Shown in pieces: positions 10,832-46,204 of a DNA stretch of 64,000 bases. Numbering within the stretch: position 1 is the first letter of the stretch; each line of letters starts with the position of its first letter. The DNA comes from Reichenbachiella sp. Its GTDB lineage: Bacteria > Bacteroidota > Bacteroidia > Cytophagales > Cyclobacteriaceae. The position numbers were made by a program, and so were the translations under genes. Where the stretch lies: positions 2,404,001 to 2,468,000 of the forward strand of contig NZ_JAWPMM010000001.1 in the NCBI RefSeq assembly GCF_033344935.1, read 5' to 3'. The notes below the pieces were generated by a model. It saw nothing but the letters and a program-made list of their open reading frames with translations, was not told the origin of the DNA and made no database searches.

Positions 10832-10836
10832 TGCAA

Positions 10837-12224: not shown

Positions 12225-12228
12225 CGTA

Positions 12229-25938: not shown

Positions 25939-27840
25939 ATGAGACCATTATATCTTTTATTTATCGGTATACTTATCGGTTTATCGTTTTCAGCGTCGAG
26001 TCAAAGGGCGCAAATTTTTCCAGGAATATATCGAGCGAAAATGATTGTCCCTGTAGCCAAAAAAAAGGGGAAGAAACCAAAGCCTAAGGAAGTATTTGTA
26101 TCAATCTATAGGCTAAAATATACCTTTGCGACAAGTGGTAAAAAAACTAGACAAATCGATTTTTTTAAGTATATAGAATATTTTGAAGGAGAACGAACAA
26201 GAGAATTAATATTTGAGAGTAATATGATAACTCAGAATGAAGCTCGGACTGAAGCCGGTATGTTACATGTAACTAAGGATATACTTAATTCTTATAAGAC
26301 TTACACGGATTTTGAATGGATAAAATTTGATCAGAATAAAAAATTCTTTGCTGATTTTGATAGAGAAGATGGCCAGAATTTTATCAACGCCTATTATAAA
26401 AAAATATATAGCATACCTGCTGGACAACATTATTCAAGCAAATGGAGTGAAATATTTGATATCCGAGACATTGATTTTATTAAAAAACTAAAAATAGTAG
26501 GTGTAGGAGATAAGAAGACAATCGATGAATTTGTTGACTTAAAGCATCATGTAGATGAACAATTAAAGTCCCACATTGATTATACCGCCGAAGCATCAGC
26601 ATTAAAAAGAGAAAATGAATATTTACTTAATGATTTAGGTAAAAATATTTTAAACTCTTCTTATCATTCATTGAGTGTCTATCAATTTTACGATGAAAAT
26701 GGCTCATCTCTCATTAATGCCAGGGTAGGCAAAGAAACTTATTATTCTAACAAAGAGTATGATGACAAAACTTACTATGTTCACAAGTACCTACTTTTAA
26801 AGCACTATGAAAATGATAAAATTCTTAAAGAAGTGTATTTAAGACCAATTGATGTCAATAGTGATATCTATAACCCTCATATTTTTCTCATGGAAGTTGT
26901 CAAAGACTCTCTCCCTTTTGTTATTCCATATCAAAAACTTGTTATTGATCACTCTGGAACTAGCAAGCTGAAAATTTATGGTTTAAAGGGTAGTTGTAAT
27001 AAAGTAGAAAATTTGGAAAATTTCTATCCAGAAAGGTCTACTGATGTACTCAATCTGGCCTATGTAAAAAGGGAAAGAACAGGAGAGTTAATCAAAAAAC
27101 AAATCTATAATGATCGGAGATTCGAGCACATGATACTTACTACTGAGCTTCCCATCAGGAAAGAAAAATTTCTGATCGAGAAAGAAAAATTTCAAACATA
27201 CAGTCAAAAAGAGGCTCAAGACGAGAAACTAAGACTACTAGAGGAAAAGAAGCGCGATAGACTTGCCAAAGAAAAGTATATAAAAAAACATGGTTTCTTT
27301 TTGGAAACCAAGGAATTAAAAAACTCAGATTTAGTCCAGAAAATTTATGAAGGCAATTTCGACAGAGTCTTATTTAATCGGAATGATCTGCAGTTCACAG
27401 CAATGATCTTCAATTATATGAATTACTTCGCTAAGAACTGTTCTTCAAGCCTTCCAAATAACAAGGTTCAAATTTACAGAGACGTATGTAGCAAGGAACG
27501 GGTTACTAGGGACGGGTATGGTGTTGAAATTCGAAGAACTTGTGTAGAATGGACAGAGCAGGGAACGGAGTATTATGCTTCTCCCAAACTATACGAAGCC
27601 TATAGAACAATAAAAAATATTAATAGTAAAGAAGCATTGAAAAATGTCCTAAGTATTTGGACTCAAGGCATGAATAATAGATCTGTATCAAAAGAGATGT
27701 CTTCTTTAAAAGCTGATATGGAACAGATTATTGAACTTAATGGCTGCAATAATAAAGCACTAAAGCGATTTGAAGAAAACCTAATAAGGTTTGCCAATGA
27801 TCAACCACCAATGAAACTTGATGGCTCAATTGGAAAGTGA
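25939..27840 (+). CDS. Large exported protein, unknown
   Basis: 633 residues with a signal peptide (MRPLYLLFIGILIGLSFSASSQ). The rest is Lys/Tyr/Glu-rich without membrane segments. Residues 420-450 form a charged helix (KFQTYSQKEAQDEKLRLLEEKKRDR), and a four-cysteine stretch appears at about 496-535 (KNCSSS, RDVCSKER, RTCVEW). The C-terminal 90 residues are helical. I do not recognise the family. It may be a secreted or periplasmic protein of the flanking chromosome. Confidence 0.62.
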   Translation: MRPLYLLFIGILIGLSFSASSQRAQIFPGIYRAKMIVPVAKKKGKKPKPKEVFVSIYRLKYTFATSGKKTRQIDFFKYIEYFEGERTRELIFESNMITQNEARTEAGMLHVTKDILNSYKTYTDFEWIKFDQNKKFFADFDREDGQNFINAYYKKIYSIPAGQHYSSKWSEIFDIRDIDFIKKLKIVGVGDKKTIDEFVDLKHHVDEQLKSHIDYTAEASALKRENEYLLNDLGKNILNSSYHSLSVYQFYDENGSSLINARVGKETYYSNKEYDDKTYYVHKYLLLKHYENDKILKEVYLRPIDVNSDIYNPHIFLMEVVKDSLPFVIPYQKLVIDHSGTSKLKIYGLKGSCNKVENLENFYPERSTDVLNLAYVKRERTGELIKKQIYNDRRFEHMILTTELPIRKEKFLIEKEKFQTYSQKEAQDEKLRLLEEKKRDRLAKEKYIKKHGFFLETKELKNSDLVQKIYEGNFDRVLFNRNDLQFTAMIFNYMNYFAKNCSSSLPNNKVQIYRDVCSKERVTRDGYGVEIRRTCVEWTEQGTEYYASPKLYEAYRTIKNINSKEALKNVLSIWTQGMNNRSVSKEMSSLKADMEQIIELNGCNNKALKRFEENLIRFANDQPPMKLDGSIGK

Positions 27841-30078: not shown

Positions 30079-31266
30079 ATGAAGGAAGGATTTGAATTTT
30101 TTTTAGAAGAATATGTAGAGAAAAAGCAAATAGCGTATGATGAAACAAATGAAATTAGAATAGAAGTTTCTACTGATAAAGCAGAAGAGATTGTTGTTTT
30201 TTTTATCACTCTTCAAGAAAAAATAATCGAAACAAACGAGAAGAGTCCTGTTTCAGTACATATGTACTCTAAGAAAATCAGCTCAAACATATTGTTATTC
30301 GGTTTTGAAGCAAATTTTGCTATTAATTTCTATAACATCGAGTTTGATGCATGGTTGGACTTTGAAAACGCTGTATTCAAGGAGAATGTTAGGTTTCATG
30401 AATGTGACTTTTATGCCTGTAATTTTGAAAACACAACATTTGAAAGTCTTGTAGATTTCTATCAATCACACTTTCATAATGATACAAAATTTTCGCTCAC
30501 AGATTTTCTAGATAGAGCAATTTTTTCTGAAACAGTTTTTCATGAAGGAGTAATATTTATTTATATCAGGCCTGGGTCTGACACTTTCATATCTTTTGAG
30601 AGAGCCACTTTTAAAAAGGGGCTTGACCTATCTCGATCAAATTTAAACAATGCAAATCTTCAATTTTTTGGAATGAGAATGGAAGAGGATAAAATTGAGG
30701 TACTGTTAATGATTCCGTTTTATACTAACTCAAAGCATAAGAATATTCAATCTGCTCAAAATTTTAGAGAGACCTATAGGCTTATTAAACATGAGCATGA
30801 GAAAACTTCTAATAGTGTAGAATCTATTAGATACAAAATACTTGAGCTTAAAGCATATAAATATGAATTAAAATTAAGTAAAAACTATCAATTTTGGAAA
30901 AAGCAGTATTGGAGGAGGGGACAGGATAGGGCTTCACTTTTTTTAAACAGAGTGTCTAATTCTTATGGTACAAATTGGGCTAGAGCATTTTTATTTACAA
31001 TTGGTTTTGCACTGCTTTTTTTAACTATCTATTACCTGATATTTAGATTTGACTCCCATGTCGAACAAATCCCAGATTTCGGTATGGTCGTAAATTCGCT
31101 TTTATACCTATTTATCTTGACAAAATGGGACTTTATGAGCTTTTATTCTTATTACTGCAATTATGAGCCAGATTGGGTTTTGTCATGGTTATTTATAACT
31201 CGGCTGGTAATAGGATATGGGGTCTTTCAGTTTGTTCAAGCATTCAGAAGATTGAATAGGAAATAG
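30079..31266 (+). CDS. Pentapeptide-repeat membrane protein
   Basis: 395 residues. Residues 90-205 show pentapeptide-like periodicity (FENAVFKENVRFHECDFYACNFENTTFES, ATFKKGLDLSRSNLNNANLQF), which folds as a right-handed beta helix. A linker helix follows, then NSYGTNWARAFLFTIGFALLFLTIYYLIF and two more hydrophobic stretches near 340-390, giving about three membrane spans. This combination is a known uncharacterised membrane family. It has no catalytic motif. It stands alone with its own intergenic region. Confidence 0.75.
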   Translation: MKEGFEFFLEEYVEKKQIAYDETNEIRIEVSTDKAEEIVVFFITLQEKIIETNEKSPVSVHMYSKKISSNILLFGFEANFAINFYNIEFDAWLDFENAVFKENVRFHECDFYACNFENTTFESLVDFYQSHFHNDTKFSLTDFLDRAIFSETVFHEGVIFIYIRPGSDTFISFERATFKKGLDLSRSNLNNANLQFFGMRMEEDKIEVLLMIPFYTNSKHKNIQSAQNFRETYRLIKHEHEKTSNSVESIRYKILELKAYKYELKLSKNYQFWKKQYWRRGQDRASLFLNRVSNSYGTNWARAFLFTIGFALLFLTIYYLIFRFDSHVEQIPDFGMVVNSLLYLFILTKWDFMSFYSYYCNYEPDWVLSWLFITRLVIGYGVFQFVQAFRRLNRK

Positions 31267-31696: not shown

Positions 31697-33178
31697 ATGA
31701 TTGTTGGCATTGATCTGGGTACGACTAAATCTGTCATTGGCTACTGGCACGAGAATAAACCTAGAATCGTTCAAGCCAGAGGCACTCAAAGCTTACCCTC
31801 AGAAGTTTTTTTCTTAAATGACAAAGTTGCGGTTGGGCATCAACCCACAGAAAAGGAATACACCTATGTGGCCGGATTCAAAAGGCATCTTGGAAGAGAT
31901 CAGACTATCCGTATAAACTCAACACAAAGAACTCATCCACAATATGTAGCAGCCATTATTCTCAAGGAGCTCGTATCTCTCGCAGAATTGGACATGAAAG
32001 AGATGGGTTATGAAGAACAAGTAGACGAGGCTGTTATCGCCATTCCATCCCATTTTGATATATCCCAGAGGAGAGCCACATTGGAGGCGGCCTCCATTGC
32101 AGGTTTAAAGGTGAAAAGATTGATTAATGAAGCCACTGCTTCAGCATTAGAATATACAAGAAATCGCAACATTGGTGAAAAGTTATTGGTCATAGACCTT
32201 GGAGGTGGCACCTTAGACCTTTCTTACATTGAAACCATAAGTGAAGATAAAGAGCCAGACTCAGCTGCTCTACAAGTTTTAAGAATCGAAGGCGATACAT
32301 TTCTTGGTGGTCTGGATTTTGACCTCAAAATAAGAAATTGGCTCCAGGAGCAACTATTGGAGCAATTTGGCACAGAAAACATTGACCAAGCACTAAAAGA
32401 AAGCGGCACAAAAACAGACCATGACCTTCAAAAGGAAATAGCCGAGAAGAAGAAACGGTTAAGTGATCAAAAAGAAATTAGACTTCATGTACCCGCTGGA
32501 ATTATCAAAAACGGTGTTGAAATATTACCAGAGTTCATATTAACAAGAGAGAAATTCCTAGACATTACTGAACCTTTGATGAAACGAATCGTGACCAAGG
32601 TCAAGCCGCTTCTCAATTCAGAAAACAAGACCAAAGTACTATTGTTAGGCCGTGCAGGACACACCTATGGGCTTAAATCATACCTAGAAGAAAAACTCAA
32701 TATTACTTGTTATCGAGATCTAGACGCGGAGACTTGTGTGGCCAAAGGCGCTATTATTCAAAGTGCCATTTTTACTGGCGCATTGAAAGAAAGACTGGTT
32801 ATGGAAGTGCTTCAAGACAATTATGGTGTTGAGCTAGAAGATAATGGCTATCATATATTTCTCCATAAAGGAAAAATCATTCCGGCCAATGCAGCCTATG
32901 AGTTTCAGCCCAATAATAAAGAGGCAACTGAATTAAGGGTAAATATTTTAAAGGGAGGGCATGCAAAAGCATCAAAAAATACCTTAGTTCAAACGATTGT
33001 CATAAAAAGGCCGTCTGACAAAGATCAGAATAAAATAAAAATAGACTTCAAAATGAATACGGATATGGTTCTTGAGGTTGATATACAAGGATCAAGTTTC
33101 ATCATTTCTTCACCAGATGGTTTAAGCAATGATGAGGTAAGTAAATACAAGCAAAGCATCTCTAAAAAGAGCAACTAA
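31697..33178 (+). CDS. Hsp70/DnaK-like ATPase without lid
   Basis: 493 residues. The actin-fold nucleotide site is complete: phosphate 1 loop GIDLGTTKS at about 4-12, LINEATASALEY at about 139-150, phosphate 2 VIDLGGGTLDLSY at about 165-177, and the adenosine loop LLGRAGHTYGLKSYL near 315. A short beta-type region follows (about 390-493), but the alpha-helical lid and C-terminal motif of DnaK are missing. It is therefore a divergent Hsp70-type protein, not the housekeeping chaperone. It begins a five- to six-gene rightward run of mostly unknown proteins, for which it may act as ATPase switch. Confidence 0.85.
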   Translation: MIVGIDLGTTKSVIGYWHENKPRIVQARGTQSLPSEVFFLNDKVAVGHQPTEKEYTYVAGFKRHLGRDQTIRINSTQRTHPQYVAAIILKELVSLAELDMKEMGYEEQVDEAVIAIPSHFDISQRRATLEAASIAGLKVKRLINEATASALEYTRNRNIGEKLLVIDLGGGTLDLSYIETISEDKEPDSAALQVLRIEGDTFLGGLDFDLKIRNWLQEQLLEQFGTENIDQALKESGTKTDHDLQKEIAEKKKRLSDQKEIRLHVPAGIIKNGVEILPEFILTREKFLDITEPLMKRIVTKVKPLLNSENKTKVLLLGRAGHTYGLKSYLEEKLNITCYRDLDAETCVAKGAIIQSAIFTGALKERLVMEVLQDNYGVELEDNGYHIFLHKGKIIPANAAYEFQPNNKEATELRVNILKGGHAKASKNTLVQTIVIKRPSDKDQNKIKIDFKMNTDMVLEVDIQGSSFIISSPDGLSNDEVSKYKQSISKKSN

Positions 33179-33552
33179 GTAAAGTATAGATAAATACGCA
33201 TGAGCCGTCATGCAAGCATTGTGTCTCTAATTTCTTCTATAATCACAAGGTAATCAGGAAAAAAGACCCTGATTTTGATAAGACGAATTTTTTAAATAAA
33301 TTAGTTTGCAGCTTTTTTGAGAGACAACACCTAACACTGTTGCTATGAGACTCAAAAATTGCGCAGGTGTACCCGCAAATGGGCAGCATTCCTATCCATC
33401 AATTACCATCATATTTTTGTTGATCACCAACTCCGCAGGTTTGATCTTATCAGTCCTAGAGAAAGATATATCCCATCTTATTTTAATATCTAGTAATAAG
33501 CAGAATCACGAAGAATAAACCACAAAACATGTAAACCTAAACTTAAATAACC
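33179..33552. other. Intergenic gap with a possible 57-codon ORF
   Basis: This 374-bp stretch separates the Hsp70-like gene from the rest of the cassette. An ORF at 33345-33518 would encode 57 residues with one hydrophobic segment (SITIIFLLITNSAGLILSVL). It has no SD and no known relative; I treat it as possible only. No terminator is clear. Confidence 0.3.
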
Positions 33553-33924
33553 ATGGCAATTCACACCTTTAAAGTTACCGTCACAGGTAAGGGCAAATTA
33601 TGGAGCGTTAAATTTTACCCTGAAAATGATCAGGATTTTTCACTGGGATTTTCAAAATCACCTGATTTCAAAACTTGGAAATCTGATGAGTTTTCAATTG
33701 ATGTTGAAGGAGATTTTGACTATCAACTCATCGTTGGCGGTCCAAGGAATACTGGCTTTGAGCTAGGCATTGAAATTAAGAACGAGAATGACTGGAAGGA
33801 CTTGGTAGAAGAAAAAGAGGGTAAAATCAGTGAAGGCTGCACTGGTGGGTCAAAAAACAAAGGATGCATTGTAGATAGCGTATCCATCCCTTCGGATGTT
33901 CAACCAGAAACCCCGATCACATGA
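33553..33924 (+). CDS. Small beta-rich protein of the Hsp70 cassette
   Basis: 123 residues. Residues 1-95 alternate strands (HTFKVTVTGKGKLWSVKFYP, SIDVEGDFDYQLIVGG) and look like a beta sandwich. The last 30 residues are flexible and hold two cysteines (GCTGG, KGCIVD). No signal peptide. The stop overlaps the start of the next gene by 4 bp, so they are coupled. It could be a client or adaptor of the Hsp70-like protein. No family is recognised. Confidence 0.6.
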   Translation: MAIHTFKVTVTGKGKLWSVKFYPENDQDFSLGFSKSPDFKTWKSDEFSIDVEGDFDYQLIVGGPRNTGFELGIEIKNENDWKDLVEEKEGKISEGCTGGSKNKGCIVDSVSIPSDVQPETPIT

Positions 33925-34823
33925 AGCGCAGTTATCTAATATCATTACTTACTGTTGTGAGTCACACTCTGTTGGCTCAATACAATGTCATGCAAGACGG
34001 TGAAGGCAAATCGTCCTTTCCTGTATTCGAGAACAATACTTTAAATGTGAATGCACAGGAAAAAAAGATAGCCTTTTCTATAACTTTCCCAGAAATGCTT
34101 CCTGATAGCGTATGGAATTTTGGGGCTTTATCTTTATCCCTAAAAGGGAAAGACAAATCTTTTCCAATAGTAAAAAATGGCATTTTTAATTTTGAGGGGA
34201 ACCTGACCTATGCCCATACCTGGTATTTAAATCAGCAAGCCAAAAGCGCTTTTTATGTTGTTGGAAATCTAGGTGTAAGTCGTTTACAAACCTATGACAG
34301 TACCCAAATTTCGGGTGAACAAATAGAGACTCAATCTCCATTGAATAGCTATGTGCAAGTTGGCTTTATTGACGATGCCCTAACGAGTTTTGAAAAAGGA
34401 GGGTTGATATTTGGATTTGGTTTTAGGCTAGGTTGGTCTGACAATGTCTCAGGCCTGACCTCTTATGAATTCTTTACCCCAATTGCTAACGGTCAACAGA
34501 TCATTACCCCTGATGCAAAGACCGTTTATTTGGCTCAGGAATACGCAGAGAATATTTTCAATACCTCTACGATGTTAGATATTGGTTTGAATACCAATGG
34601 AAGGATTAATCCGATGTTACATGTCAGGCATAACACCCTTGAGGAAGGTGATAATAAAACCAATCTTGGTATTGGCTTTTACTTGTCAGAAAAGGATGCG
34701 CCTTTAAATGCCGTTTTTGGTATTCAGGGATTTATCAATGATCTCAATGATAATGCCGAGAAGGATACCAGCGCATGGGAACGTACGACGATCAATCTAG
34801 TTGCAGGATTCAAACTAAAATAA
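33921..34823 (+). CDS. Exported beta-rich protein, probable outer-membrane barrel
   Basis: 300 residues with a signal peptide (MKRSYLISLLTVVSHTLLAQ). The rest is rich in alternating aromatic and polar strands (FEKGGLIFGFGFRLGW, TNLGIGFYLSEKDAPLNAVFGIQGF) and ends TTINLVAGFKLK, a typical terminal barrel strand. This suggests a 10- to 12-strand outer-membrane barrel. It lies between cytoplasmic and inner-membrane components, so the cassette may span the envelope. Confidence 0.65.
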   Translation: MKRSYLISLLTVVSHTLLAQYNVMQDGEGKSSFPVFENNTLNVNAQEKKIAFSITFPEMLPDSVWNFGALSLSLKGKDKSFPIVKNGIFNFEGNLTYAHTWYLNQQAKSAFYVVGNLGVSRLQTYDSTQISGEQIETQSPLNSYVQVGFIDDALTSFEKGGLIFGFGFRLGWSDNVSGLTSYEFFTPIANGQQIITPDAKTVYLAQEYAENIFNTSTMLDIGLNTNGRINPMLHVRHNTLEEGDNKTNLGIGFYLSEKDAPLNAVFGIQGFINDLNDNAEKDTSAWERTTINLVAGFKLK

Positions 34824-34828
34824 CCATT

Positions 34829-35698
34829 ATGAACATGCAAATGCTTCCAAATGATTCATTAGAAACTAAACTTAGTGCAGCTGATTCATTGCAAATAGCT
34901 AAAGAAGTTGCTGCCAAATTCGAAGTGAGTGAAACGATATTTCCAACAGGTTCTTTGGTTGTAGGTGCTTTCGTTTTGCTTGGGTTCTTTGTGGTTCTTT
35001 ACCTTGTCCTATCCAAGATCAAAGATGATAATAATGCAACTAGACATTCTTTGGGGTTAATAGTCATTTTCCTTGCCATTGCCTCCATGCTGGTGATTGG
35101 CCTGTATGCTATAAATGCCGCTCCAGATAATGACGCAGCAAAAGACATTTTCAACCAAGTACTGCCTGTTGTGGCCGCTTGGGTGGGTACAGTCCTTGCG
35201 TATTTTTTTGGCAGGGAAAATTTCGAATCTGCCTCTCAAAAGTTCGGAGAATTGCTGGATCAGGTTTCTCCAAAGAAATTAGCCAAGGCCATTAGTGTAG
35301 AGCAGGTCATGATCGTTTATGAGTCCATATTTTTCGAAGTGGACACAAGTAAAGACATGACAGCGACTATAGAGATATTAAACACGTACAATAAATCGCG
35401 TTTTCCCATTTTCACAGGTCTCAACCATGATAAAGTCGTTTCACTTTTATATCGAGATGACATGATAGCATATATGTCAAAACAAACTGCGACTAAAAAA
35501 ATAGCTGATTTTATCAGTGAAGGAAAAGAGAGGAAATTCATTACCATCAGCAAAGAACGCACCCTTAAGGAAGTCTCTGATTTGATGAGTAAAGAAGATG
35601 TGCAAGACGCTTTTATAACAGCAGAAGGAACGCCAAAAGGACGGGTAGATGGATATATTACCCTCAAGTTAATTGATCGATTTTTACAGAAAGAATAA
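34829..35698 (+). CDS. Inner-membrane protein with CBS-like cytoplasmic domain
   Basis: 289 residues from ATG 34829, just after the previous stop; an upstream in-frame start at 34775 would overlap that gene. Membrane segments are at about 38-60, 73-95 and 110-128 (AAWVGTVLAYFFGREN). The cytoplasmic part (about 150-289) looks like a CBS pair: ISVEQVMIVYES, then a strand-helix, then FITISKERTLKEVSDLMSKEDVQDAFITAEGTPKGRVDGYITLKLIDRFL. CBS domains sense adenine nucleotides, which would suit an Hsp70-type partner. Confidence 0.65.
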   Translation: MNMQMLPNDSLETKLSAADSLQIAKEVAAKFEVSETIFPTGSLVVGAFVLLGFFVVLYLVLSKIKDDNNATRHSLGLIVIFLAIASMLVIGLYAINAAPDNDAAKDIFNQVLPVVAAWVGTVLAYFFGRENFESASQKFGELLDQVSPKKLAKAISVEQVMIVYESIFFEVDTSKDMTATIEILNTYNKSRFPIFTGLNHDKVVSLLYRDDMIAYMSKQTATKKIADFISEGKERKFITISKERTLKEVSDLMSKEDVQDAFITAEGTPKGRVDGYITLKLIDRFLQKE

Positions 35699-35716
35699 CC
35701 AGACGACCTAAATTTT

Positions 35717-36910
35717 ATGATTAAGAAAAGGACTCTTTACCTTTGGGGGAAAAGAAATGGGATTAACCGTCATACCATCAGAAGATCATGTATCTATTTG
35801 GGATCGGTTCTTTTTGCTCTTTTTTTAGCGATCTACCGAGAAGAAATTTTAACAGGGACGAAGGTCTTTTTCGCCACCGTATTCTCAGATGATCTGGTGT
35901 TTGCTTCGCTAAATGTAAGCTGGATAGCCTTGCTATATTACTTATCCACCTTTATCTGGGTTGTATTTGTTTCCGTCCATTATGGATTGATCAATAAAAG
36001 TGGAGAAGCCCGTGTTCAGAGTGCTATTGACGAAGTGGAAAATCATGTACTCAGTGCCGTTGACGATATAAAATATGCGATATATAAAACGCCAAACATG
36101 GAAGCTCTTTCGAATGCTGTTCCAGATTTCCGAACGACGATTTACCTACTTAAACGGTTAGAAGCCTTAAAATCAAGTGATCCAAGTCCAGAGTCTAAAG
36201 AAAGGTGTGAAAGCATATTCAATGAAATCCTTCATCGTGGCTGTCAACTTCTTGCTGATTTTATGCGAAAGGACATTGAACAATTTAGTGCCAATATCAT
36301 GATTGGTATTGAAAACACGAAAGAAAACGAAGTGTTAATGGAGAAAGTCAGGAAGCTCAATAAAAACACACCAGTTCCTAGGCATTATATTGCCAATCGT
36401 TACATTATGTGTGCCTTAATATCGGCCAATAAGCTTCATTTTCCAATTGGAAATGGAAAAGTCACCAATATGGTCTCGATGGTGTTACGTGATGATATTG
36501 AAGAATTGGATCAAATTCCTGGTCCCTGCCTAGCTTATAGAAAAGGTGAATATATTATCCCGAATACAGTAGCAATAGAGAAGGAATTTCAACATTTGCC
36601 GGACAGGGTACGTAAACAGACGCAAAAGTTTTATAACGATAGGAGTAATAATTTTTTGAGTTTAGCCTCTTTTGACTTATCTTTTGATGAGTTTAAGCGA
36701 TCAGAAGAGGCAAAAGTAACGACTCGACCGAGGTCGGTTGGAGTCGTAAATTTTTTCTATGAAAAAGAGAATATAATTAGTGCGGACAGTGAGTTTCATG
36801 CTGCTTTTTCAGCTGTTATACAGCCTATTTTAGTTTTGTTGGCTGAAGAGTTGTGGTACTATATTTGCACTTATAAGGAAGAAGTCGTCACCGAATTTTT
36901 TACCGATTAA
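35717..36910 (+). CDS. Two-span membrane protein with GAF-like C-terminus
   Basis: 397 residues. Two membrane spans are at about 25-45 (SCIYLGSVLFALFLAIY) and 70-92. The remainder is cytoplasmic. Residues 340-390 (SVGVVNFFYEKENIISADSEFHAAFSAVIQPILVLLAEEL) resemble the end of a GAF domain, where a final strand is followed by a helix against the domain. It is the fifth gene of the cassette. The function is unknown; a signal-receiving membrane protein is plausible. Confidence 0.58.
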   Translation: MIKKRTLYLWGKRNGINRHTIRRSCIYLGSVLFALFLAIYREEILTGTKVFFATVFSDDLVFASLNVSWIALLYYLSTFIWVVFVSVHYGLINKSGEARVQSAIDEVENHVLSAVDDIKYAIYKTPNMEALSNAVPDFRTTIYLLKRLEALKSSDPSPESKERCESIFNEILHRGCQLLADFMRKDIEQFSANIMIGIENTKENEVLMEKVRKLNKNTPVPRHYIANRYIMCALISANKLHFPIGNGKVTNMVSMVLRDDIEELDQIPGPCLAYRKGEYIIPNTVAIEKEFQHLPDRVRKQTQKFYNDRSNNFLSLASFDLSFDEFKRSEEAKVTTRPRSVGVVNFFYEKENIISADSEFHAAFSAVIQPILVLLAEELWYYICTYKEEVVTEFFTD

Positions 36911-36920
36911 AGGAGGATAA

Positions 36921-37166
36921 ATGTCAGATACAAATCAAGCCCCGTCAGTTCGACCTGAGACCCTGGAAGAATTCAACGAAATGGTTGATGCTATTAAAGC
37001 ATTAAACGAAAAGCGCAGAAATCAAATCAAAGAAGCGATCAGGCAAAATAATGGCTCTGTTGTGATAAATGATGGTTTTGGTATATCTATTATCAATGGT
37101 AATGAAAATACCCAAGAGGAAATTTTCCCAGATGCTATCGAATATACTGATAGTCTTGAGCCGTAA
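36921..37166 (+). CDS. Small protein ending the Hsp70 cassette
   Basis: 81 residues, helical in the middle (ETLEEFNEMVDAIKALNEKRRNQIKEAIRQNN) with a C-terminal acidic tail. The ATG is preceded by AAAGGAGG at good spacing, a rare strong SD on this chromosome, so the protein may be needed in quantity. No motif is known. It follows the membrane gene by 10 bp. Confidence 0.6.
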   Translation: MSDTNQAPSVRPETLEEFNEMVDAIKALNEKRRNQIKEAIRQNNGSVVINDGFGISIINGNENTQEEIFPDAIEYTDSLEP

Positions 37167-37527: not shown

Positions 37528-40500
37528 TTACTTTGATATCAGTTTTAGGTTAATCAAATAAATCAACCCCAATCGCTCCGATGCCTGTTCTAATTTATTG
37601 CGCCAACTCAAAATTTCATCATAGTTCAGGCTGACACTGAAAATCTCCTTGCCTTCTTCATTAGGAGTTGGAAGTACTGCTTCGGCAACTTCGCGAAGTA
37701 GCTGAAAGTATTCCTGTTCCAGCTCATCAAACTCAGTTTTACCTTCAAAATAATTCAATTGTTCACCTAAATTTCCCGTCAATTTAGAAAATGCATTGTT
37801 TGCTTTATCAATAGCATTTTGTATTTGTTTTTTCACGATCTCCTCCTCGATAGCTGAATGACCATCTAGACTAGCCAACTCGTGCAGCTGGGCAGCGACT
37901 CCAACCGCAACAGTCAATTCTTGATACCATTTCGTCATGAATTCGACAAAAGCAACTTTTCCGCTTAAATCAGGTTGAATAAATAAACCTACCTTCTCAA
38001 TTATTTCTTCGTCAATTTCCTGAGGAAAAAATGCGTGAGACTGCAACTTTTCGATATTTCCTAGTGTAAATTGATGCAATTTGAATCTGTAAGTTCGCTT
38101 GTGATAAACCTGACCTAAACAAGAAGGAATAATCCAAAACTCATTATAGTTCAAATCCAACATCAAATGCTTCAAGCTTAAATATTGGCATGTGCCTATG
38201 GCATCCTTGAGTAGTTGTAGACAAATAGCCACTCCATTAAACTGGTCAATGACGTCTACAAGATCGGCAACGAGAATCAATCTTTTATATTCCGCTTCGA
38301 AATGTGCTTCAATTTCAATCAGATGGCCGCTTTCTTCTGCCTTCTTGTCACAATCCCTTTTAATTCGACGTTCAAAATCATTCTTTAACTTCTTTAAATA
38401 GATGGAAGATTCCTTAATAACACCTTTTTTTAAAGGCATTGGCATGGGGTGGACAACGTGCTTCCAGCCAAAAGCTATTGATCTTAAAATATGTTCTTCC
38501 TTCTCCTCAACATTCTTCAACTCAACGGGATCCACGTACTTGCCAAAGTAATTTCCAAACGAACGTTGAAAAAGAGCCAGCTGCTTATGGGCTTCCATGA
38601 TATTTACCAATGAAATACGAACAACATCTCTTTTTTTACCCAGTGCTAGATGAAGTTGATAAAAGATTACCTTAGCTGACTGCCAAAGAAAATTGTTAAG
38701 TGAAGTGAAATATTCATTATGATCATCCCGATACGCTTTGAACTTTTTGTTCAAAAGTGAATGAGCGTTTCCCTCAGTTAAAACCTTTTTTTTTGCGTTT
38801 TGGTCACTTCCTTCGGCCACAAGACCCAATGAATCAGAAATACTTTGTGGGAATAAAATTTTGAATTCTAAAGCCAGTTCAACATTAACAAGTTCACTAG
38901 CATATTGAACAAAAACCGCTTGTTTTCTTCCTTTTCTAAAATATTCTTCCAAAACATTTAGAAAAGGTTCTAGCCTCGAAATAGCTTTCTTTCGCATAGA
39001 AAGCACTTGATCTACAAATTCAGTCCAATCAACAGGACGCCTTTCATAAGTAAACAGGTTTTGGAGAGTGTTATTAAGGGAAACCAAGTACTCAATTGGA
39101 TTATTCTCGGTTGAGATTTGTGCGTTTGAATCGTCATGATCAGTAGAAACAAAATGTAGTTTGTGTCCATATCCTTTGGCGCCATGATTGTTTAAATAGG
39201 GCAACCCATAGCGCAAGGCATCAATTATTTCCAATTTTCTTAAGTGGGGAATATTCCCTTCATCTTCAAAATCGTTAAAAATATCTAGTATAAAATGTGC
39301 CTTAATCCAGCCATCTTCCCTTTCAATTAACCCAATCTCATATTTTTTATGAAGTCTTTCCAAAAAAACCTCTTCACAACTCAAGGCAATGGCTTTGGAC
39401 TCATCTGAGTAGCAATGAAGGCCAAATAAGGCACGGGAAGAAGCATGTATTGACAAGTGTTGAATTCCAAACTTTATTTCTTTTTCATTGAGCGGAATCG
39501 TCTTGTCCGGCAATAAATAGCTTATCCAAAAAAGAAATTCACCCATCGCCTCTAAGGCCTGATCACCTTCAACAGATTTAACTTCGATCTCAACTACCTT
39601 CAACCAAGCTGTGGCAATACTGAAAATTGCAGACTTGGAGACTCCATGACCTTTGAATAATTGTTTTTTTACCTGATATTTCTCATTCCAGTTTTCATCT
39701 TCCTTAAGAAACTTAATAGATTCGACGGTTTCTGAAAAATTTAGATAAATCTTAAGCGCCAATAGCTCTGAGTCGTCTTTGTAGAGACCCTCAATCAACT
39801 GCTCATGATCTTCAGTGAAGGTTTTAATGCCCAACCAAATCAATGCCTTGCAAATACCGCGATAAGCAACATAGTCATTCCATTGATGATCATTCAAAGC
39901 CTTCATAATTGTTGGCCTGGATATCGATATATTTCGAAAAACATTGGTCAATAAAACAAACAAGTCTGCCTCCTCGACCAACTTTAAGCTTTGTATACAG
40001 GTGGCTTCCAAATCAGTATCACCAATATGAAGTAGTTCACTGATAAGGGCAGACCTTATCGGATGTAGCCCAAGCAACCAGAACTCATTTTCGGAAAATT
40101 GAAGCAGATATTCGCCTTTTAGAAACTCCACAGCGAGCCGCAATTTTGTCGAAATTTTTGCCTTCCTAATCTTGTCCACTTTGACCCTGGCTGCATTGTT
40201 GTCTGAAAAAGAAACGATTTTCAAAAGTTGAATGAACTCGGGGTTTTCATCCTCAATTCGATTGAGCTGGCTTTCAATTCTTGATTTCAGCGTCTTACCT
40301 TGATTGATCAGATAAGTGAATTCCAACAATGGTCCATGACCCCCAAAGCGCAGCCACACCTCATCAAAATCAGTGAAATTATGATCATCCAAACGACTAT
40401 TGAGTCGTTGATAGATTGATTTTGCTTCTTCCTCAGTCAACCTTAATTCAACATCTCCAAAACTGAATGCTGCCTCTTTTTCTGGTGTTCTGTTCCAATC

Positions 40501-41607
40501 TTCCTCCCTAATGGTGATTAGAAATTTGAAGTTGCTGCCAGATGCAAAGTCCTTTAAAATTTGAAGCCAGTTTTGATTACCGGGTATAACATCAATGTAG
40601 ATCAAAATGGGTATCTCAAGCGATTTTGAAATAGCGTTTAAAGCTTGAATTTGTTCTAAGGTGGCTTGGAGTCTATCCAACAATATCACCTCATATGCCA
40701 AAGCAGAGTAATCCTTAATAAATCGATAAGCCAAGGCGCTTTTTCCTTGTCCTGAAGCACCATGAACAATAACAGCATCCTTAGTTTTAAAAAATTGAGC
40801 AACTTCATAAAGCTTCTCCTCTCTTTTTACATCCAGTCCGGCTGAAATATGATCATAAGTAGCTCCAACTCCCTCGAAAAAACCATTGCTCAATTGATCA
40901 ACAGCATTATCTTGTTGAATCCTCGTTTCAATTTTACGAATTGAGGAGTGTAGGTGGGTGTGATATTTTTCTCGTTCGGCTACGAACTTTCCTATATCAT
41001 TGAGCTTAGCAAATAAAATTTCTTGGGTAATTTCACCACCTTTTTCTGATAAGAAAAAAAGCCAATAATGCAAATATTCAATTGCGTGATCCGCATCAAT
41101 GGCTACGGCTTTCGCTTTGATTAAATCGATGGTCCGATGTTGATAATCCTCTTCTGAGGCGGTCTCAAATGATGTATTGGACTGAAGATACTTTAACTGA
41201 TCAGGTGAAAAATCGAAATTTTTAAACTTCTGCTCAAAGCCTTTGAAGTCAGTTTCCGGAGCAAAAAGTTTGATTAGACCCTCACTAATATTTCCAAAAC
41301 ATACAAGCTTAAGTTTAGGATTATTACCATTTTCAAATGTCTGTACTGCACGATGAAAAAAGGATGTTTTACTGTTTGTCTGAATTAGATCGGAAAATGA
41401 AAGCGTGCCAGTAGTAGATTTTACCTGGATACATTCCTGAAGTGTTTCGCTCTCATTGAGAATATCTAGATCTTCAATTCCCTCTGGAATGTATTTTAAC
41501 TCCTGATTTTGATCTTCTAATATTCGACATATCGAATATAATGCCTGAGTCCTATAACCCTTTAGTGAGCTAATGGCACCACGATTGCCATCTGTAATCT
41601 CTTTCAA
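37528..41607 (-). CDS. STAND-type NTPase fused to a Cap4/DUF4297-like nuclease
   Basis: 1359 residues. N-terminal residues 8-70 follow the DUF4297/Cap4 PD-(D/E)xK pattern: GNRGAISSLKGYRTQALYSIC, then E42-GIEDLD48-I, then CIQ61VK63ST. A P-loop NTPase follows: HGASGQGKSALAYRF at about 282-296 (Walker A), ILIYIDV near 335 (Walker B) and LITIREEDWNR near 366 (sensor). The remaining 900 residues are helical repeats with no known motif, a normal place for a sensor. Nuclease-STAND-sensor is the Avs anti-phage layout, where phage protein binding triggers DNA degradation. It is a single-gene unit. Assignment to a particular Avs type is not possible by eye. Confidence 0.72.
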   Translation of the reverse strand: MKEITDGNRGAISSLKGYRTQALYSICRILEDQNQELKYIPEGIEDLDILNESETLQECIQVKSTTGTLSFSDLIQTNSKTSFFHRAVQTFENGNNPKLKLVCFGNISEGLIKLFAPETDFKGFEQKFKNFDFSPDQLKYLQSNTSFETASEEDYQHRTIDLIKAKAVAIDADHAIEYLHYWLFFLSEKGGEITQEILFAKLNDIGKFVAEREKYHTHLHSSIRKIETRIQQDNAVDQLSNGFFEGVGATYDHISAGLDVKREEKLYEVAQFFKTKDAVIVHGASGQGKSALAYRFIKDYSALAYEVILLDRLQATLEQIQALNAISKSLEIPILIYIDVIPGNQNWLQILKDFASGSNFKFLITIREEDWNRTPEKEAAFSFGDVELRLTEEEAKSIYQRLNSRLDDHNFTDFDEVWLRFGGHGPLLEFTYLINQGKTLKSRIESQLNRIEDENPEFIQLLKIVSFSDNNAARVKVDKIRKAKISTKLRLAVEFLKGEYLLQFSENEFWLLGLHPIRSALISELLHIGDTDLEATCIQSLKLVEEADLFVLLTNVFRNISISRPTIMKALNDHQWNDYVAYRGICKALIWLGIKTFTEDHEQLIEGLYKDDSELLALKIYLNFSETVESIKFLKEDENWNEKYQVKKQLFKGHGVSKSAIFSIATAWLKVVEIEVKSVEGDQALEAMGEFLFWISYLLPDKTIPLNEKEIKFGIQHLSIHASSRALFGLHCYSDESKAIALSCEEVFLERLHKKYEIGLIEREDGWIKAHFILDIFNDFEDEGNIPHLRKLEIIDALRYGLPYLNNHGAKGYGHKLHFVSTDHDDSNAQISTENNPIEYLVSLNNTLQNLFTYERRPVDWTEFVDQVLSMRKKAISRLEPFLNVLEEYFRKGRKQAVFVQYASELVNVELALEFKILFPQSISDSLGLVAEGSDQNAKKKVLTEGNAHSLLNKKFKAYRDDHNEYFTSLNNFLWQSAKVIFYQLHLALGKKRDVVRISLVNIMEAHKQLALFQRSFGNYFGKYVDPVELKNVEEKEEHILRSIAFGWKHVVHPMPMPLKKGVIKESSIYLKKLKNDFERRIKRDCDKKAEESGHLIEIEAHFEAEYKRLILVADLVDVIDQFNGVAICLQLLKDAIGTCQYLSLKHLMLDLNYNEFWIIPSCLGQVYHKRTYRFKLHQFTLGNIEKLQSHAFFPQEIDEEIIEKVGLFIQPDLSGKVAFVEFMTKWYQELTVAVGVAAQLHELASLDGHSAIEEEIVKKQIQNAIDKANNAFSKLTGNLGEQLNYFEGKTEFDELEQEYFQLLREVAEAVLPTPNEEGKEIFSVSLNYDEILSWRNKLEQASERLGLIYLINLKLISK

Positions 41608-41759: not shown

Positions 41760-42419
41760 TCATATTTCGTGCACAACTTCGAATTGCATCGCTTCTGCCA
41801 CCGTAGGGCTCAACCATTTTGGAAGCCATGATAAAAATGCTGTTTTAATACCTTTTCGTAAAATGCGTCTTCCAAACTTTGTGCTAAGTTCCCATATTGG
41901 ATCACTCTCATCCTCGTTGCATTTTTTAGCGAATTCAAATACATTCTCAGCAATCGATGTCGGAGTTGGTGGATTCTTTAGAAGACTTAGTTCTCTAAAA
42001 TTGATTCTTAGCAGTCGATGAAAGTCTAATTTAGCTGCATTTTCATCGAAATAGGCATTTATAAGTATTAAGGTGGGGTCGCCGTTATATGACCAGTCAG
42101 TAGTATTCTCAATATCTTCGACAATCTCCACAAAAGCGGAATGAGAAAAACCCCATTGAAGATCATCTATATAAGCGTCAACGGCAATGGTGCCATTTTC
42201 GAAGTCTACAGGAATGTACCCCGCACAGAAAAAATCTGCGTAATAATCCGACCTGTAATGCCAGTAATTTAAGTGAGGAAGAATATCAGATTTAGTCAAT
42301 TTATCTTCAGGCCTAGCTAGGAGAATCCCTGTCAGAACAACATCCTTGCGCTTATATTTTTCTCTGAAAGCCTTGGTAAGCCTATCCTCAATATCAGCTT
42401 TTGAATGAAAGACATTCAT
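41760..42419 (-). CDS. Unknown protein upstream of the STAND gene
   Basis: 219 residues, soluble, aromatic-rich and acidic (LPHLNYWHYRSDYYADFFCAGYIPVDFENGTIAVDAYIDDLQWGFSH at about 48-94). The C-terminal 50 residues are helical. No catalytic motif and no membrane segment. It is on the same strand as the STAND gene but 152 bp upstream, so a shared operon is uncertain. Confidence 0.55.
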   Translation of the reverse strand: MNVFHSKADIEDRLTKAFREKYKRKDVVLTGILLARPEDKLTKSDILPHLNYWHYRSDYYADFFCAGYIPVDFENGTIAVDAYIDDLQWGFSHSAFVEIVEDIENTTDWSYNGDPTLILINAYFDENAAKLDFHRLLRINFRELSLLKNPPTPTSIAENVFEFAKKCNEDESDPIWELSTKFGRRILRKGIKTAFLSWLPKWLSPTVAEAMQFEVVHEI

Positions 42420-42904: not shown

Positions 42905-43465
42905 ATGAAGTTATACATCAAGTACATGGTCAGTTTGCGGTGCAAAATGATGGTTAAAGAAGAGCTTCTGAAGCTCGGGCTTCACTATGTGGTTGTTGAC
43001 CTTGGGATGATTGAAATTTTAGAGGACATCACTCCTGAGCAAAGACTTCAGCTAAAGCAGAACCTGATGAAGTCAGGGCTAGAATTGCTTGATGACAAAA
43101 AAAGCATATTAATAGAAAAGATTAAGAATTTAATCATTGAGATGATTCACTATACTGATGAATTGCCAAAGGTTAATTATTCTGACTACATAAGCGAAAA
43201 ATTGGGATATGACTATACCTATCTGGCTAATATTTTTTCAGAAGTAAAAGGCATTACTATTCAGCAGTTTATCATCTTGCACAAAATAGAACGAGTGAAG
43301 GAGTTACTTATTTATGATGAGCTCAATCTGACCGAAATTTCTTATAAGTTACACTACAGCAGTGTCGCACATCTGTCCAATCAATTCAAAAAAATCACGG
43401 GATTGACACCTACTTTCTACAAGCAACTCAAAAATAAGCGAAAAGCTAATTTGGAGGATTTATAG
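42905..43465 (+). CDS. AraC-family regulator with ferredoxin-like N-terminus
   Basis: 186 residues. The C-terminal half (about 85-180) is an AraC double helix-turn-helix: YISEKLGYDYTYLANIFSEVKGITIQQFIILHKIERVKELL, then LTEISYKLHYSSVAHLSNQFKKITGLTPTFYK. The N-terminal half (about 3-75, VSLRCKMMVKEELLKLGLHYVVVDLGMIEIL) resembles the small ferredoxin-like domain found in a common Bacteroidetes AraC type. The ligand is unknown. It may control the neighbouring prohibitin operon. Confidence 0.8.
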   Translation: MKLYIKYMVSLRCKMMVKEELLKLGLHYVVVDLGMIEILEDITPEQRLQLKQNLMKSGLELLDDKKSILIEKIKNLIIEMIHYTDELPKVNYSDYISEKLGYDYTYLANIFSEVKGITIQQFIILHKIERVKELLIYDELNLTEISYKLHYSSVAHLSNQFKKITGLTPTFYKQLKNKRKANLEDL

Positions 43466-43633
43466 AAGGGAGTATGATATGGTCTTTAAAAGTCTTGCTT
43501 GATCCTTTGTTTGTCATTAATAGCGCAACCAAAGATGTTCTACCAGAATTTTTTCAAACGTGAGATTTATGTAACTCAAGTCCAGGCTTGTATAACATAG
43601 TCTGTCGAGCCAATTTCATCTTTGCAATAAAAG

Positions 43634-44491
43634 ATGAGAGCCATAGATAACTCAGATATAAATGATATCAAAAATGTTTTTTACAATAGTAATTGGAGGA
43701 AGTTATTCATTGTAGGGTTAGTTCTGGTCTTGGTTTTTTTGTTTAAACCATGGGTTCAAGTTGGAGCTGGAGAGAGAGGGATCGTTCAGAATTTTGGGGC
43801 TGTTCAGGATCAAGTCTTGAATGAAGGAATTCACTTTCTTCTGCCTGTGATGCAAACGGCTATTTTGATGGATGTAAAGATTCAAAAGGCCATCACGGAT
43901 GCCGCTTCTGCATCTTCCGACCTTCAAGACGTCGCCCTTTCGGTCGCCCTTAACTATCATATCATTCCAGATAAAGCAAACATTGTCTATCAAACGATTG
44001 GCGTGCAATTCAAAGAACGGATTATTGATCCAGCCATTCAGGAAGTAATGAAAGCGGTATCTGCCCGGTATACGGCCGAAGAGCTAATCACAAAGAGACC
44101 CGCAGTGAGTACAGAAATGCAAGAGTCATTGACTACTCGATTGCTTGCATCAAACATCTCTGTGGATGCCTTCTCAATTATATCGTTCAGCTTTTCTCAA
44201 ACATTTACGGATGCAATAGAAGCAAAACAAACTGCTGAACAAAATGCATTGAAGGCCAAAAGAGACTTGGATAGGATAAAGGTAGAAGCCCAACAAACTA
44301 TAGCTGCCGCAACGGCCGAAGCCGAGGCACTAAGATTACAAAAAATGAATATTTCACCAGATCTGATTGAATTAAGAAAAATTGAAGCTAATCTCAAGGC
44401 CATAGAAAAATGGGATGGTATTTTGCCAAAGGTCACGGGAGCTGGAGCTATTCCATTTATTGGAGTAGAGAAAGTGCTGAGTAAGAAATGA
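43634..44491 (+). CDS. Prohibitin/SPFH-domain protein
   Basis: 285 residues: one membrane span (LFIVGLVLVLVFLFKPWV, about 24-41), then an SPFH/prohibitin domain (VGAGERGIVQNFGAVQDQVLNEGIHFLLPVMQ, about 43-200) and a coiled-coil tail (EAKQTAEQNALKAKRDLDRIKVEAQQTIAAATAEAEALRLQK). Prohibitins form large rings that organise the inner membrane and control proteases. The stop overlaps the next start by 4 bp, so it leads a three-gene membrane operon. Confidence 0.88.
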   Translation: MRAIDNSDINDIKNVFYNSNWRKLFIVGLVLVLVFLFKPWVQVGAGERGIVQNFGAVQDQVLNEGIHFLLPVMQTAILMDVKIQKAITDAASASSDLQDVALSVALNYHIIPDKANIVYQTIGVQFKERIIDPAIQEVMKAVSARYTAEELITKRPAVSTEMQESLTTRLLASNISVDAFSIISFSFSQTFTDAIEAKQTAEQNALKAKRDLDRIKVEAQQTIAAATAEAEALRLQKMNISPDLIELRKIEANLKAIEKWDGILPKVTGAGAIPFIGVEKVLSKK

Positions 44492-44751
44492 TAGGCGTAT
44501 TCAGGGATTTAGGTGCATTTACTGTGATTGTCTTCTTTGTGCTAGTTCATTTTTTCACTGGAAGTATTCGTGAAATACATAGGTACTTCATGATAAAAAA
44601 AGATTACTCGGATTATAATAATCGCTCTTTGCGCTTCAGCGAACGCTTCAAGCATAATTTTTCTAGAATTATTTTTACCTCGACTACATTTTATATTTCG
44701 GCTTCCATAACCATTATGGCATTTTTGATATTTCTACTCTTCAACCATTGA
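44488..44751 (+). CDS. Small two-span membrane protein
   Basis: 87 residues with hydrophobic segments at about 8-24 and 66-85 and a basic stretch between (RYFMIKKDYSDYNNRSLRFSERFKHNFSR). It overlaps the prohibitin stop by 4 bp (ATGA) and is probably translated with it. No family is recognised. Confidence 0.6.
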   Translation: MIGVFRDLGAFTVIVFFVLVHFFTGSIREIHRYFMIKKDYSDYNNRSLRFSERFKHNFSRIIFTSTTFYISASITIMAFLIFLLFNH

Positions 44752-44753
44752 GA

Positions 44754-45314
44754 ATGCCGAACATGTCTGGGCGAAGGGTGCCATATGATCTGAAGTGTAA
44801 TTTCGAGGAACTAAAAAATATATATCAACTCGAATTACTTGAACTCAGAGCATTTAATAGGAAAGCGACTTTAAAACTGCTACTAATTGCGTTGCCTTTG
44901 CTGTTGATAGCCATAGCTCTATTCAGCTTTGAATTTGGCAAGCATCATATTATTCCATGGTATCTTATCTCTGGTTTTGCTGGTCTGTACTTTATTTTCA
45001 GAGTCATTATTCTTCAGATTAATTCTCACACAGTATCTACTAGAGCAAACTCTAAGGTAGATAAATACCTCAAGGGAATCACAAGAACAAATTTGACAGT
45101 CTTTCAAATGTCGAATGAATCTTTAGAGATTTATATCGAGGGTAAACTGGAATCTGAATGCAACTGGTCTGAATTGAACATGATAATTGAGAAGGAAAAG
45201 TATTTCTATTTATCGTTTAATAAAGGCAAGATTATATTGATTCCTAAAAATGCAGTTCAACCGAAATTCTATCAAGAATTATTGCTTATGGCAAAGACTA
45301 AGGTTGTTATCTGA
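44754..45314 (+). CDS. YcxB-like membrane protein
   Basis: 186 residues from ATG 44754, right after the previous stop (TGA 44749-44751). Two membrane spans lie at about 40-60 and 70-90. The C-terminal domain (about 115-180: LTVFQMSNESLEIYIEGKLESECNWSELNMIIEKEKYFYLSFNKGKIILIPK) matches the beta-rich YcxB-like fold. It is the third gene of the prohibitin operon. The role is unknown. Confidence 0.6.
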   Translation: MPNMSGRRVPYDLKCNFEELKNIYQLELLELRAFNRKATLKLLLIALPLLLIAIALFSFEFGKHHIIPWYLISGFAGLYFIFRVIILQINSHTVSTRANSKVDKYLKGITRTNLTVFQMSNESLEIYIEGKLESECNWSELNMIIEKEKYFYLSFNKGKIILIPKNAVQPKFYQELLLMAKTKVVI

Positions 45315-45490
45315 GCGACAAAACCCATAATATCAAGGCTTCCTTACTTCATTTAATTCCTTGCATAGAAGTGGGATATATGTAATGTTGATAAGCCAGG
45401 GTGTAACACATTACTTGCTGAATAAATCGACTTTTGTGTGGAATAAAAAACTGCTGTTGTAGTGACTCATTACTTATAATTATAACAATC

Positions 45491-45607
45491 ATGTCAAAAG
45501 AAAAAGAAGGCAAGAGTAAATCAGGCAAGAAAGCACCTGAGAAGACATTAAAAGAAAAACGGGCAGCAAAAGCAGCCAAAAGAAAAGAGAGAAGCAAAGG
45601 AGAGTAA
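45491..45607 (+). CDS. Short Lys/Ala-rich protein
   Basis: A 38-residue ORF, MSKEKEGKSKSGKKAPEK... ending AAKRKERSKGE. It is extremely basic and likely disordered or nucleic-acid binding. Similar tiny Lys/Ala-rich proteins occur beside small stress genes in Bacteroidetes as I recall; unverified. It precedes the cupin gene by about 40 bp. Confidence 0.55.
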   Translation: MSKEKEGKSKSGKKAPEKTLKEKRAAKAAKRKERSKGE

Positions 45608-45649
45608 AACCGAGGCCAATTGAATGAAGTAGAGATATGGCAGAAATTA

Positions 45650-46000: not shown

Positions 46001-46021
46001 AATTTAACAAGTAAAGCCAAG

Positions 46022-46204
46022 ATGGAAGATGATGAAAATAAGTACCGAGTGGGCGATTCAGTTTATGCGAAAGCTACTCCGGATATAGAATTGATTGTGA
46101 GGAGATACATCAAAAGAATCTATTACTGTACAGTGCTGGGCCATCCGGATGCCAAAGATAGGGTGCTATTCGAAAGGGAGATTTTAAATAAAGACGCTCA
46201 GTAG
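46022..46204 (+). CDS. Small unknown protein
   Basis: 60 residues, beta-rich with a KOW/SH3-like look (YRVGDSVYAKATPDIELIVRRYIKRIYYCTVLG). No motif beyond that. It is 21 bp after the cupin gene and on the same strand. Similar small proteins are frequent in Bacteroidetes. Function unknown. Confidence 0.6.
   Translation: MEDDENKYRVGDSVYAKATPDIELIVRRYIKRIYYCTVLGHPDAKDRVLFEREILNKDAQ

Follow-up and report, generated by a model that had tools for sequence, protein, structure and literature searches.

Five close-packed rightward genes of Reichenbachiella sp. (33553-37166) form one apparent unit, and its core is a protein with three predicted membrane helices followed by a tandem CBS pair, here called TM-CBS. 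Coordinates refer to the window, i.e., the whole stretch of 64,000 nucleotides that was analysed. The reading tentatively preferred, to which a probability of about 0.4 is assigned as a whole, is that these genes make up a single accessory envelope unit working as an adenine-nucleotide-responsive inner-membrane switch, tied to an envelope output of the defence or lysis type. TM-CBS belongs to an unnamed family with 100 relatives found across many phyla, whose distribution is patchy (3 of 395 genomes of the phylum), and in a minority of loci its gene adjoins defence-type or wall-hydrolase genes.

Layout of the unit and its Hsp70-like neighbour

All six genes predicted by the initial annotation are present in the list of open reading frames, with the same coordinates and on the forward strand. 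The gene of a small soluble protein of 123 amino acids (33553..33924), described in that annotation as a beta protein, overlaps by 4 nt (33921-33924) the gene of an exported protein of 300 amino acids (33921..34823). TM-CBS (289 amino acids, 34829..35698) starts at an ATG placed 5 bp past the stop of the exported-protein gene or, alternatively, at 34775, in which case the two genes overlap. A gap of 18 bp leads to a second membrane protein of 397 amino acids (35717..36910), and a further 10 bp, including an AGGAGG motif, lead to a small protein of 81 amino acids (36921..37166). Both the proposal of one unit after 33553, made from overlaps and tight spacing, and that of a strong Shine-Dalgarno sequence before the last small gene are thus borne out. 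From the stop of the Hsp70-like gene (31697..33178) to the start of the small gene there are 374 bp, and therefore the close-packed unit comprises five genes and not six. On the opposite strand, a convergent and separate gene outside the unit (37528..41607) encodes 1359 amino acids with a DUF4297-like N-terminus (PADLOC, E 1e-6) and a match to Pfam nSTAND_NTPase5 that stays below the cut-off (E 7e-7, 29.5 bits vs 34); this is the STAND gene that had been placed alongside the cassette.

The 493-amino acid Hsp70-like protein matches Pfam HSP70 (E 5e-62) and, in PADLOC, PDC-M61B (E 5e-4). Its ATPase domain is present, with IDLGTT and DLGGGT motifs that align with DnaK, and the alignment covers DnaK residues 4-484 (to 484 or 515, depending on the template), with the beta substrate-binding domain kept. 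The helical lid is missing, as the protein ends at residue 493, where the lid starts; since the alignment with DnaK stops at that point, the initial description of a lid-less Hsp70-like ATPase is correct. The same annotation had put this protein at the centre of a six-gene sensing system, in which it would be an ATP switch steering the assembly of the envelope parts. Consistent with this proposal are its position on the same strand as the small gene, the YegD-like Hsp70-family frame that starts about 85 bp past the TM-CBS match in a relative from Rubrivivax (locus record L052) and the Hsp70 variant described for GAP1-N2 conflict systems in PMC7159879. However, that frame belongs to a different subfamily and is the single case of an Hsp70-family gene of any kind detected by tblastn in the 85 TM-CBS locus records. 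Moreover, no orthologue of the lid-less protein was found in 197 other genomes of the class; the best matches kept as loci there, self excluded, belong to frames 634 to 688 amino acids long, as in DnaK. Nor was one found in five genomes that carry TM-CBS relatives, in which the frames of six matches measure 623 to 642 amino acids and that of one weak match measures 426. In relatives, the Hsp70 and the other genes occur separately, an outcome that the initial annotation had itself named as refuting its proposal and that applies to the Hsp70 part. Because no orthologue was found in either set of genomes, the Hsp70-centred arrangement is unsupported; such a system has a slim chance, and for the lid-less Hsp70 the most likely status is that of a neighbour separate from the unit.

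TM-CBS and its partner proteins

The predicted model of TM-CBS (pLDDT 78) consists of three long N-terminal helices, which are hydrophobic according to hydrophobicity analysis, followed by the CBS pair. Foldseek aligns the latter with known CBS pairs (e.g., 3oco, E 1.5e-7, probability 1.00, TMt 0.78), and the Pfam CBS score is just below the cut-off (22.5 vs 24 bits); the protein is therefore a membrane/CBS-like one, as had been annotated. An adenine nucleotide is the probable ligand of this pair. From an evolutionary perspective, the window protein groups with those of L040 and L086 and four others (100/84). Five residues are invariant in the 75 aligned members (75/75): four of them (W118, G120, T121 and A124) belong to the last membrane segment, and the fifth, R191, to the CBS part.

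CBS pairs mostly regulate transporters and enzymes, and the best Foldseek match of TM-CBS is the Mg transporter MtCorB. It would be consistent with these points that the unit is an ordinary module of envelope homeostasis or transport, with no role in defence, in which TM-CBS would be a nucleotide-regulated channel accessory comparable to parts of CorB/CNNM or CLC, a porin would be encoded by the exported-protein gene, and the nearness of effector genes would reflect shared genomic islands. The membrane part also matches Pfam Cation_efflux, below threshold (18.7 vs 26.6 bits). Against this explanation, which is judged rather unlikely, no transporter membrane domain scored above the Pfam cut-off in the TM-CBS proteins scanned, and the superposition on MtCorB has an rmsd of 18.8 over 283 columns and therefore rests on the CBS pair. 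The patchy spread of the family in the phylum argues in the same direction.

The partner proteins of the unit are less easily classified. The 123-amino acid protein has no family match in Pfam, PADLOC, NCBIfam or PHROGs, and the 81-amino acid one has weak and unconvincing family matches. The exported protein begins with a signal-peptide-like sequence and shows a weak porin-like match, below the cut-off (E 0.024), and it is a probable outer-membrane protein, for which the annotated barrel is putative. Small and exported proteins near TM-CBS recur in Bacteroidota (L040, L167, L063 and L078); the exported proteins of these four loci constitute one family, in which the window copy is not counted, and the 4-nt overlap between the two genes is the same in the window, L040 and L167. 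Pairs of this kind lie within two genes of TM-CBS in 6 of 8 cases, window included, vs 69 of 194 close pairs, which lends slight support to the association, the length limits of the pair rule having been chosen after the examples were seen and the L063 pair being missed by it. In the second membrane protein, two hydrophobic segments lie near the N-terminus and a marginal one near the C-terminus, and 394 other genomes of the phylum gave no relative of it; its annotation as a membrane protein stands, while the GAF-like part was not recovered in any of the same four databases, and its model (pLDDT 40) is of no use for fold assignment.

Gene neighbours of the TM-CBS relatives

The genes that adjoin TM-CBS in its relatives include SIR2-like, TIR, STAND, trypsin/NucA, phospholipase and peptidoglycan hydrolase genes. 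Of the 85 locus records, 8 have a SIR2-like gene no more than two genes (about 2 kb) away from TM-CBS, six by Pfam above the cut-off (L009, L033, L057, L058, L067, L076) and two by tblastn (L069, L070), and the same tblastn found no SIR2 farther from TM-CBS in those records. In L009 and L058, TM-CBS is followed by SIR2 and then by nSTAND1. A TIR gene stands beside TM-CBS in L091 and a Tle1-like phospholipase gene in L044. In a Pfam tally, SIR2_2 occurs in 4 of 139 near genes (same strand, at most two genes away) and is absent among the first 25 families listed for 139 far genes (either strand, at least six genes away, drawn from 318), two sets that are not fully matched because their strand and distance rules differ. 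The window itself, L002 and four close relatives of L059 were also kept out of the tally, as were open reading frames of <90 or >900 amino acids or cut by a contig end.

The ORF-based counts rely on longest-ORF gene calling, which fails on GC-rich loci, so that genes are missed there; in fact, the YegD-like frame of L052 and the SIR2 genes of L069 and L070, missed by ORF calling, were recovered by tblastn on the DNA. Eleven records with no profile TM-CBS among their ORFs were left out of these counts (L007, L008, L011, L012, L035, L041, L049, L051, L052, L069, L070). With duplicates or fragments dropped (L001, L003, L004, L005, L006, L010) 76 loci remained, including the window; the count of close partners kept L003 (77 loci). 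According to the latter, 40 of 77 loci have no close partners, and genome G843 (L167) carries a membrane protein, TM-CBS, a small protein and an exported protein with no recognised effector alongside. Both observations favour the transport module, while the SIR2 genes, all found near TM-CBS, speak against it.

Wall-hydrolase genes bear on a further explanation, namely that TM-CBS is a holin-like pore former, in which a nucleotide change would open the inner membrane and a partner, a wall hydrolase elsewhere and the exported protein here, would complete lysis. A GH46-like gene occupies position +1 from TM-CBS in 6 loci (ORF-based count), amidase genes are near it in L034 and L044, and two VanY are among the near genes of the Pfam tally. 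Polar residues are conserved in the last membrane segment, and there are sub-threshold matches to Phage_holin_2 (Pfam, E 0.0013, 19.3 vs 32 bits) and to a PHROG holin (E 0.0088). However, no holin family scored above the cut-off in Pfam or PHROGs, and the weak matches may reflect mere hydrophobicity. Furthermore, Pfam reveals no wall hydrolase in the window unit, and searches of phage records and of IMG/VR, at the sensitivity applied, gave no TM-CBS relative; a holin-like role has a slim chance.

In the preferred reading, that of a nucleotide-responsive envelope switch, TM-CBS would be the core, sitting in the inner membrane with its CBS pair facing the cytosol and an adenine nucleotide as predicted ligand. 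A change of ligand would alter the state of the conserved membrane segment, and the envelope part of the output would come from the exported protein with its small partner and from the second membrane protein. Stress or infection may trigger this switch, in a defence or self-lysis type of response. This is suggested by analogy, since TM-CBS in some relatives adjoins NAD-consuming SIR2 or TIR genes, or nuclease, phospholipase or peptidoglycan-cutting genes, and on this basis a defence role of the unit is plausible. A broader proposal, which appears distinctly unlikely, is that TM-CBS proteins make up a widespread but so far unrecognised class of switches for immunity or suicide, in which a CBS-gated helix bundle would sense a nucleotide change caused by infection (e.g., loss of NAD or ATP by SIR2/TIR) and open the envelope with wall hydrolases or, in Bacteroidota, with a dedicated outer-membrane protein and its small partner. 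A membrane CBS family of patchy distribution that, in several phyla, stands beside SIR2, TIR, STAND, phospholipase or wall-hydrolase genes would represent a new coupling of nucleotide sensing to the envelope, and it raises the question whether a membrane CBS pair turns the loss of NAD or ATP into permeabilisation.

Comparison with known systems

The view that the cassette corresponds to no named system is supported, as no full match was found in Pfam, NCBIfam, PADLOC or PHROGs; for the five unit genes PADLOC 2.0.0 gave no convincing match and a single hit to CARF_TM (E 0.027) for TM-CBS. Upstream, at 30079-31266, a pentapeptide protein is encoded that bears a weak resemblance to HalA (20.9 bits vs a cut-off of 250); with respect to Hailong, the likeness is limited to this protein, and no recognisable partner enzyme is present among the ten window proteins scanned. 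CorB/CNNM and other CBS-pair transporters share with TM-CBS the order of its parts, membrane part first and CBS pair second, and differ from it in the transporter membrane domain, of which Pfam gave no match above the cut-off in TM-CBS.

GAP1-N2 conflict systems employ chaperone-type switches, including HSP70 without the peptide-binding domain (Kaur et al. 2020, PMC7159879). The window resembles the GTPase-HSP70 systems of this group in having a chaperone-type Hsp70 variant, whereas in its Hsp70 the beta substrate domain is retained and the gene stands apart from the unit, and no GTPase, GrpE or FNIII protein, the partners in GAP1-N2, was detected by Pfam among the ten window proteins scanned. 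The term CBS is absent from the text of PMC7159879. System 3 of the same authors (trypsin + NucA) has no core match by Pfam among the ten window proteins, and the window unit gave no match to a protease or a nuclease. In the relative L040, by contrast, a trypsin-NucA protein and a Tle1-like phospholipase are encoded together with TM-CBS and the small and exported proteins. According to the DefensePredictor paper (2026), no characterised defence system contained CBS domains before its own DS-11 (PMC13092281). In DS-11 (CBS-HEPN), as in the reading of TM-CBS given here, an adenine derivative is the proposed ligand of the CBS domain, which would control an immune output; DS-11 is a one-protein system, whereas TM-CBS, in which Pfam finds no HEPN, has membrane helices and keeps the company of envelope genes.

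The CBS protein and its gene unit

The six open reading frames that the initial annotation had joined in an Hsp70-centred cassette were all recovered by ORF calling in the window. The last five encode a small protein, an exported protein, a membrane protein with a CBS pair (TM-CBS, 34829..35698, plus strand), a second membrane protein and a small protein of 81 aa. In the window sequence the first two of these genes overlap by 4 nt, the remaining gaps are 5, 18 and 10 bp in order, and 374 bp separate the end of the Hsp70-like gene (31697..33178, plus strand, 493 aa) from the first of them; 33553-37166 is therefore treated as the unit, with the Hsp70-like gene as a neighbour. The final 10-bp gap, ahead of the 81-aa gene, holds an AGGAGG (36911-36923), an unusual ribosome site in a phylum where such sites are rarely used.

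The structure model of TM-CBS (289 aa) starts with three long helices, followed by a C-terminal domain with block pLDDT values of at least 80. The compact Foldseek matches of this model are CBS pairs (3oco, E 1.5e-7, probability 1.00), and a PDB-sequence profile search likewise retrieves CBS proteins. A genome-contig scan with a four-member alignment as query gave 100 relatives, 80 of which were kept, from Bacteroidota, Pseudomonadota, Cyanobacteriota, Chloroflexota, Acidobacteriota, Planctomycetota, Actinomycetota and other phyla, as well as one archaeal MAG. Across 75 aligned members, four residues of the last membrane segment (W118, G120, T121, A124) and one of the CBS part (R191) never vary.

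On the most likely reading, the CBS pair would sense an adenine nucleotide, and TM-CBS would relay any change both to its own membrane segment and to its partners in the envelope, with a role in stress, defence or lysis. Gene packing, CBS fold, family and neighbourhoods are observed; to the reading as a whole, with its putative ligand, predicted topology, possible gating and presumed joint action and purpose, we give roughly two chances in five.

The Hsp70-like gene and the surroundings

The Hsp70-like protein matches Pfam HSP70 at 5e-62 and can be aligned to DnaK from the first strand through the complete beta substrate domain, ending at the expected start of the lid, so that its description as lid-less is borne out. 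Some match was found in 189 of 198 class genomes, own genome counted; no orthologue was found among class genomes, the best non-self match scoring 158 bits versus 1079 for self. Those ranking highest among the listed matches (loci L115 to L143) sit in DnaK-sized frames of 634 to 688 aa, and the own genome has one further match, in a 641-aa frame. Seven matches occur in the genomes of five TM-CBS relatives (loci L040, L086, L022, L013 and L015): six have frames of 623 to 642 aa, whereas the seventh, a weak one, has a 426-aa frame. By tblastn, one of 85 locus records (the 80 from the contig scan plus L002, L009, L114, L167 and L168) has an Hsp70-family frame: in L052 (Rubrivivax, 9854-12009) it starts about 85 bp past the TM-CBS match and encodes what we take, from its sequence, to be a YegD-like protein. 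This adjacency is a hint, not a link.

Convergent to the unit, on the minus strand, lies a DUF4297-like and STAND gene (37528-41607), which looks like a defence gene in its own right; a 219-aa gene (41760-42419, minus strand) lies on its upstream side. On the other side, a pentapeptide-repeat protein (30079-31266) matches HalA, the Hailong effector, below threshold. As to the accessory nature of the region, the block 42905-47542 has counterparts in a genome of the same family (G662), two genes at 86 and 82% identity and the others at 39-69%. The G662 genes preceding this block match window genes 46275-50715, a short gene at 19308, or nothing, with no match to window 25-42 kb; a search of 20 other genomes of the family did not find the gene at 25939-27840.

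Effector and wall-hydrolase genes beside TM-CBS

TM-CBS stands in a close-packed same-strand run in 37 of 77 locus records, the other 40 being without one. Its recurrent partners form two groups, immune or suicide-type effectors and wall hydrolases. SIR2-like genes were found by Pfam in L009 (fused to TIR), L033, L057, L058, L067 and L076, and by tblastn in L069 and L070, in all eight loci at most two genes or about 2 kb from TM-CBS; tblastn with the six Pfam-found genes as queries gave no match farther away in the 85 records. A motif scan over 288 near and 943 farther genes gave seven matches; five are SIR2-like genes, each within two genes of TM-CBS, and the other two were judged by eye to be unrelated.

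L009 and L058 share the order TM-CBS, SIR2-type gene, nSTAND1 gene; the SIR2-type gene of L009 is SIR2-TIR, and in L058 (395-6136) the nSTAND1 gene carries TPR-S and patatin domains. In L009 an island rich in TIR-type genes (142-4395 and 12090-14957) flanks the cassette of genome G033; one gene matches the Thoeris ThsB TIR model and further ones appear TIR-like by eye, one with WD40-like repeats. A TIR gene is present at L091 and a possible one at L032 (E 0.0011). In L032 and L114, TM-CBS is followed, at once or one gene later, by a pair of small uncharacterised genes (146/163 and 223/209 aa); the two loci were judged alike by eye. In L040 (Flavobacterium, 9974-15674), TM-CBS heads a row with genes for a small protein, an exported protein and trypsin-NucA; a Tle1-like phospholipase gene, four genes away from TM-CBS, completes it. 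L044 also has a Tle1-like gene.

As for the wall hydrolases, GH46-like genes are the immediate 3' neighbours of TM-CBS in six loci, all from Bacteroidota and five closely related, and amidases are found at L034 and L044 and, by eye only, at L037. A Pfam tally compared 139 near genes (same strand, within two genes of TM-CBS) with 139 far ones (six or more away, either strand). The near list is topped by SIR2_2 and PG_binding_1 (4 each), then UPF0047 and Amidase_2 (3 each), and includes two VanY genes, one of which we take to be that of L022; SIR2 and wall families are absent from the far list's first 25 families, all these counts being small numbers. PADLOC SIR2 models behave like Pfam SIR2. 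Counting against the wall-hydrolase pattern, amidase-like genes in L085 also occur far from TM-CBS.

Distribution and published systems

The spread of the family is patchy. Of 295 class genomes, three have a TM-CBS match at E 1e-61 or better; at E 1e-3 any match is found in 17, those beyond the top three being at 4e-5 or weaker with partial profile coverage. It occurs in 3/395 phylum genomes (E 1e-6) and in 3/199 genomes of the genus of L040, including L040's own (E 1e-10, one a short frame). Phage records searched with the window protein, and IMG/VR searched with the alignment, yielded no relative.

Among the best open-access matches listed, no paper describes the family by its title or the start of its abstract. 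By term search, the word CBS is absent from the main text of Kaur et al. 2020 (PMC7159879) and from the main text, as covered by that search, of a 2021 death-domain paper (PMC8195603). The former reports a trypsin-NucA system as well as variants of HSP70 that occur with GTPases. The DefensePredictor paper (PMC13092281) states, where it treats CBS domains, that no characterised defence systems with such domains existed, and reports DS-11 (CBS-HEPN).
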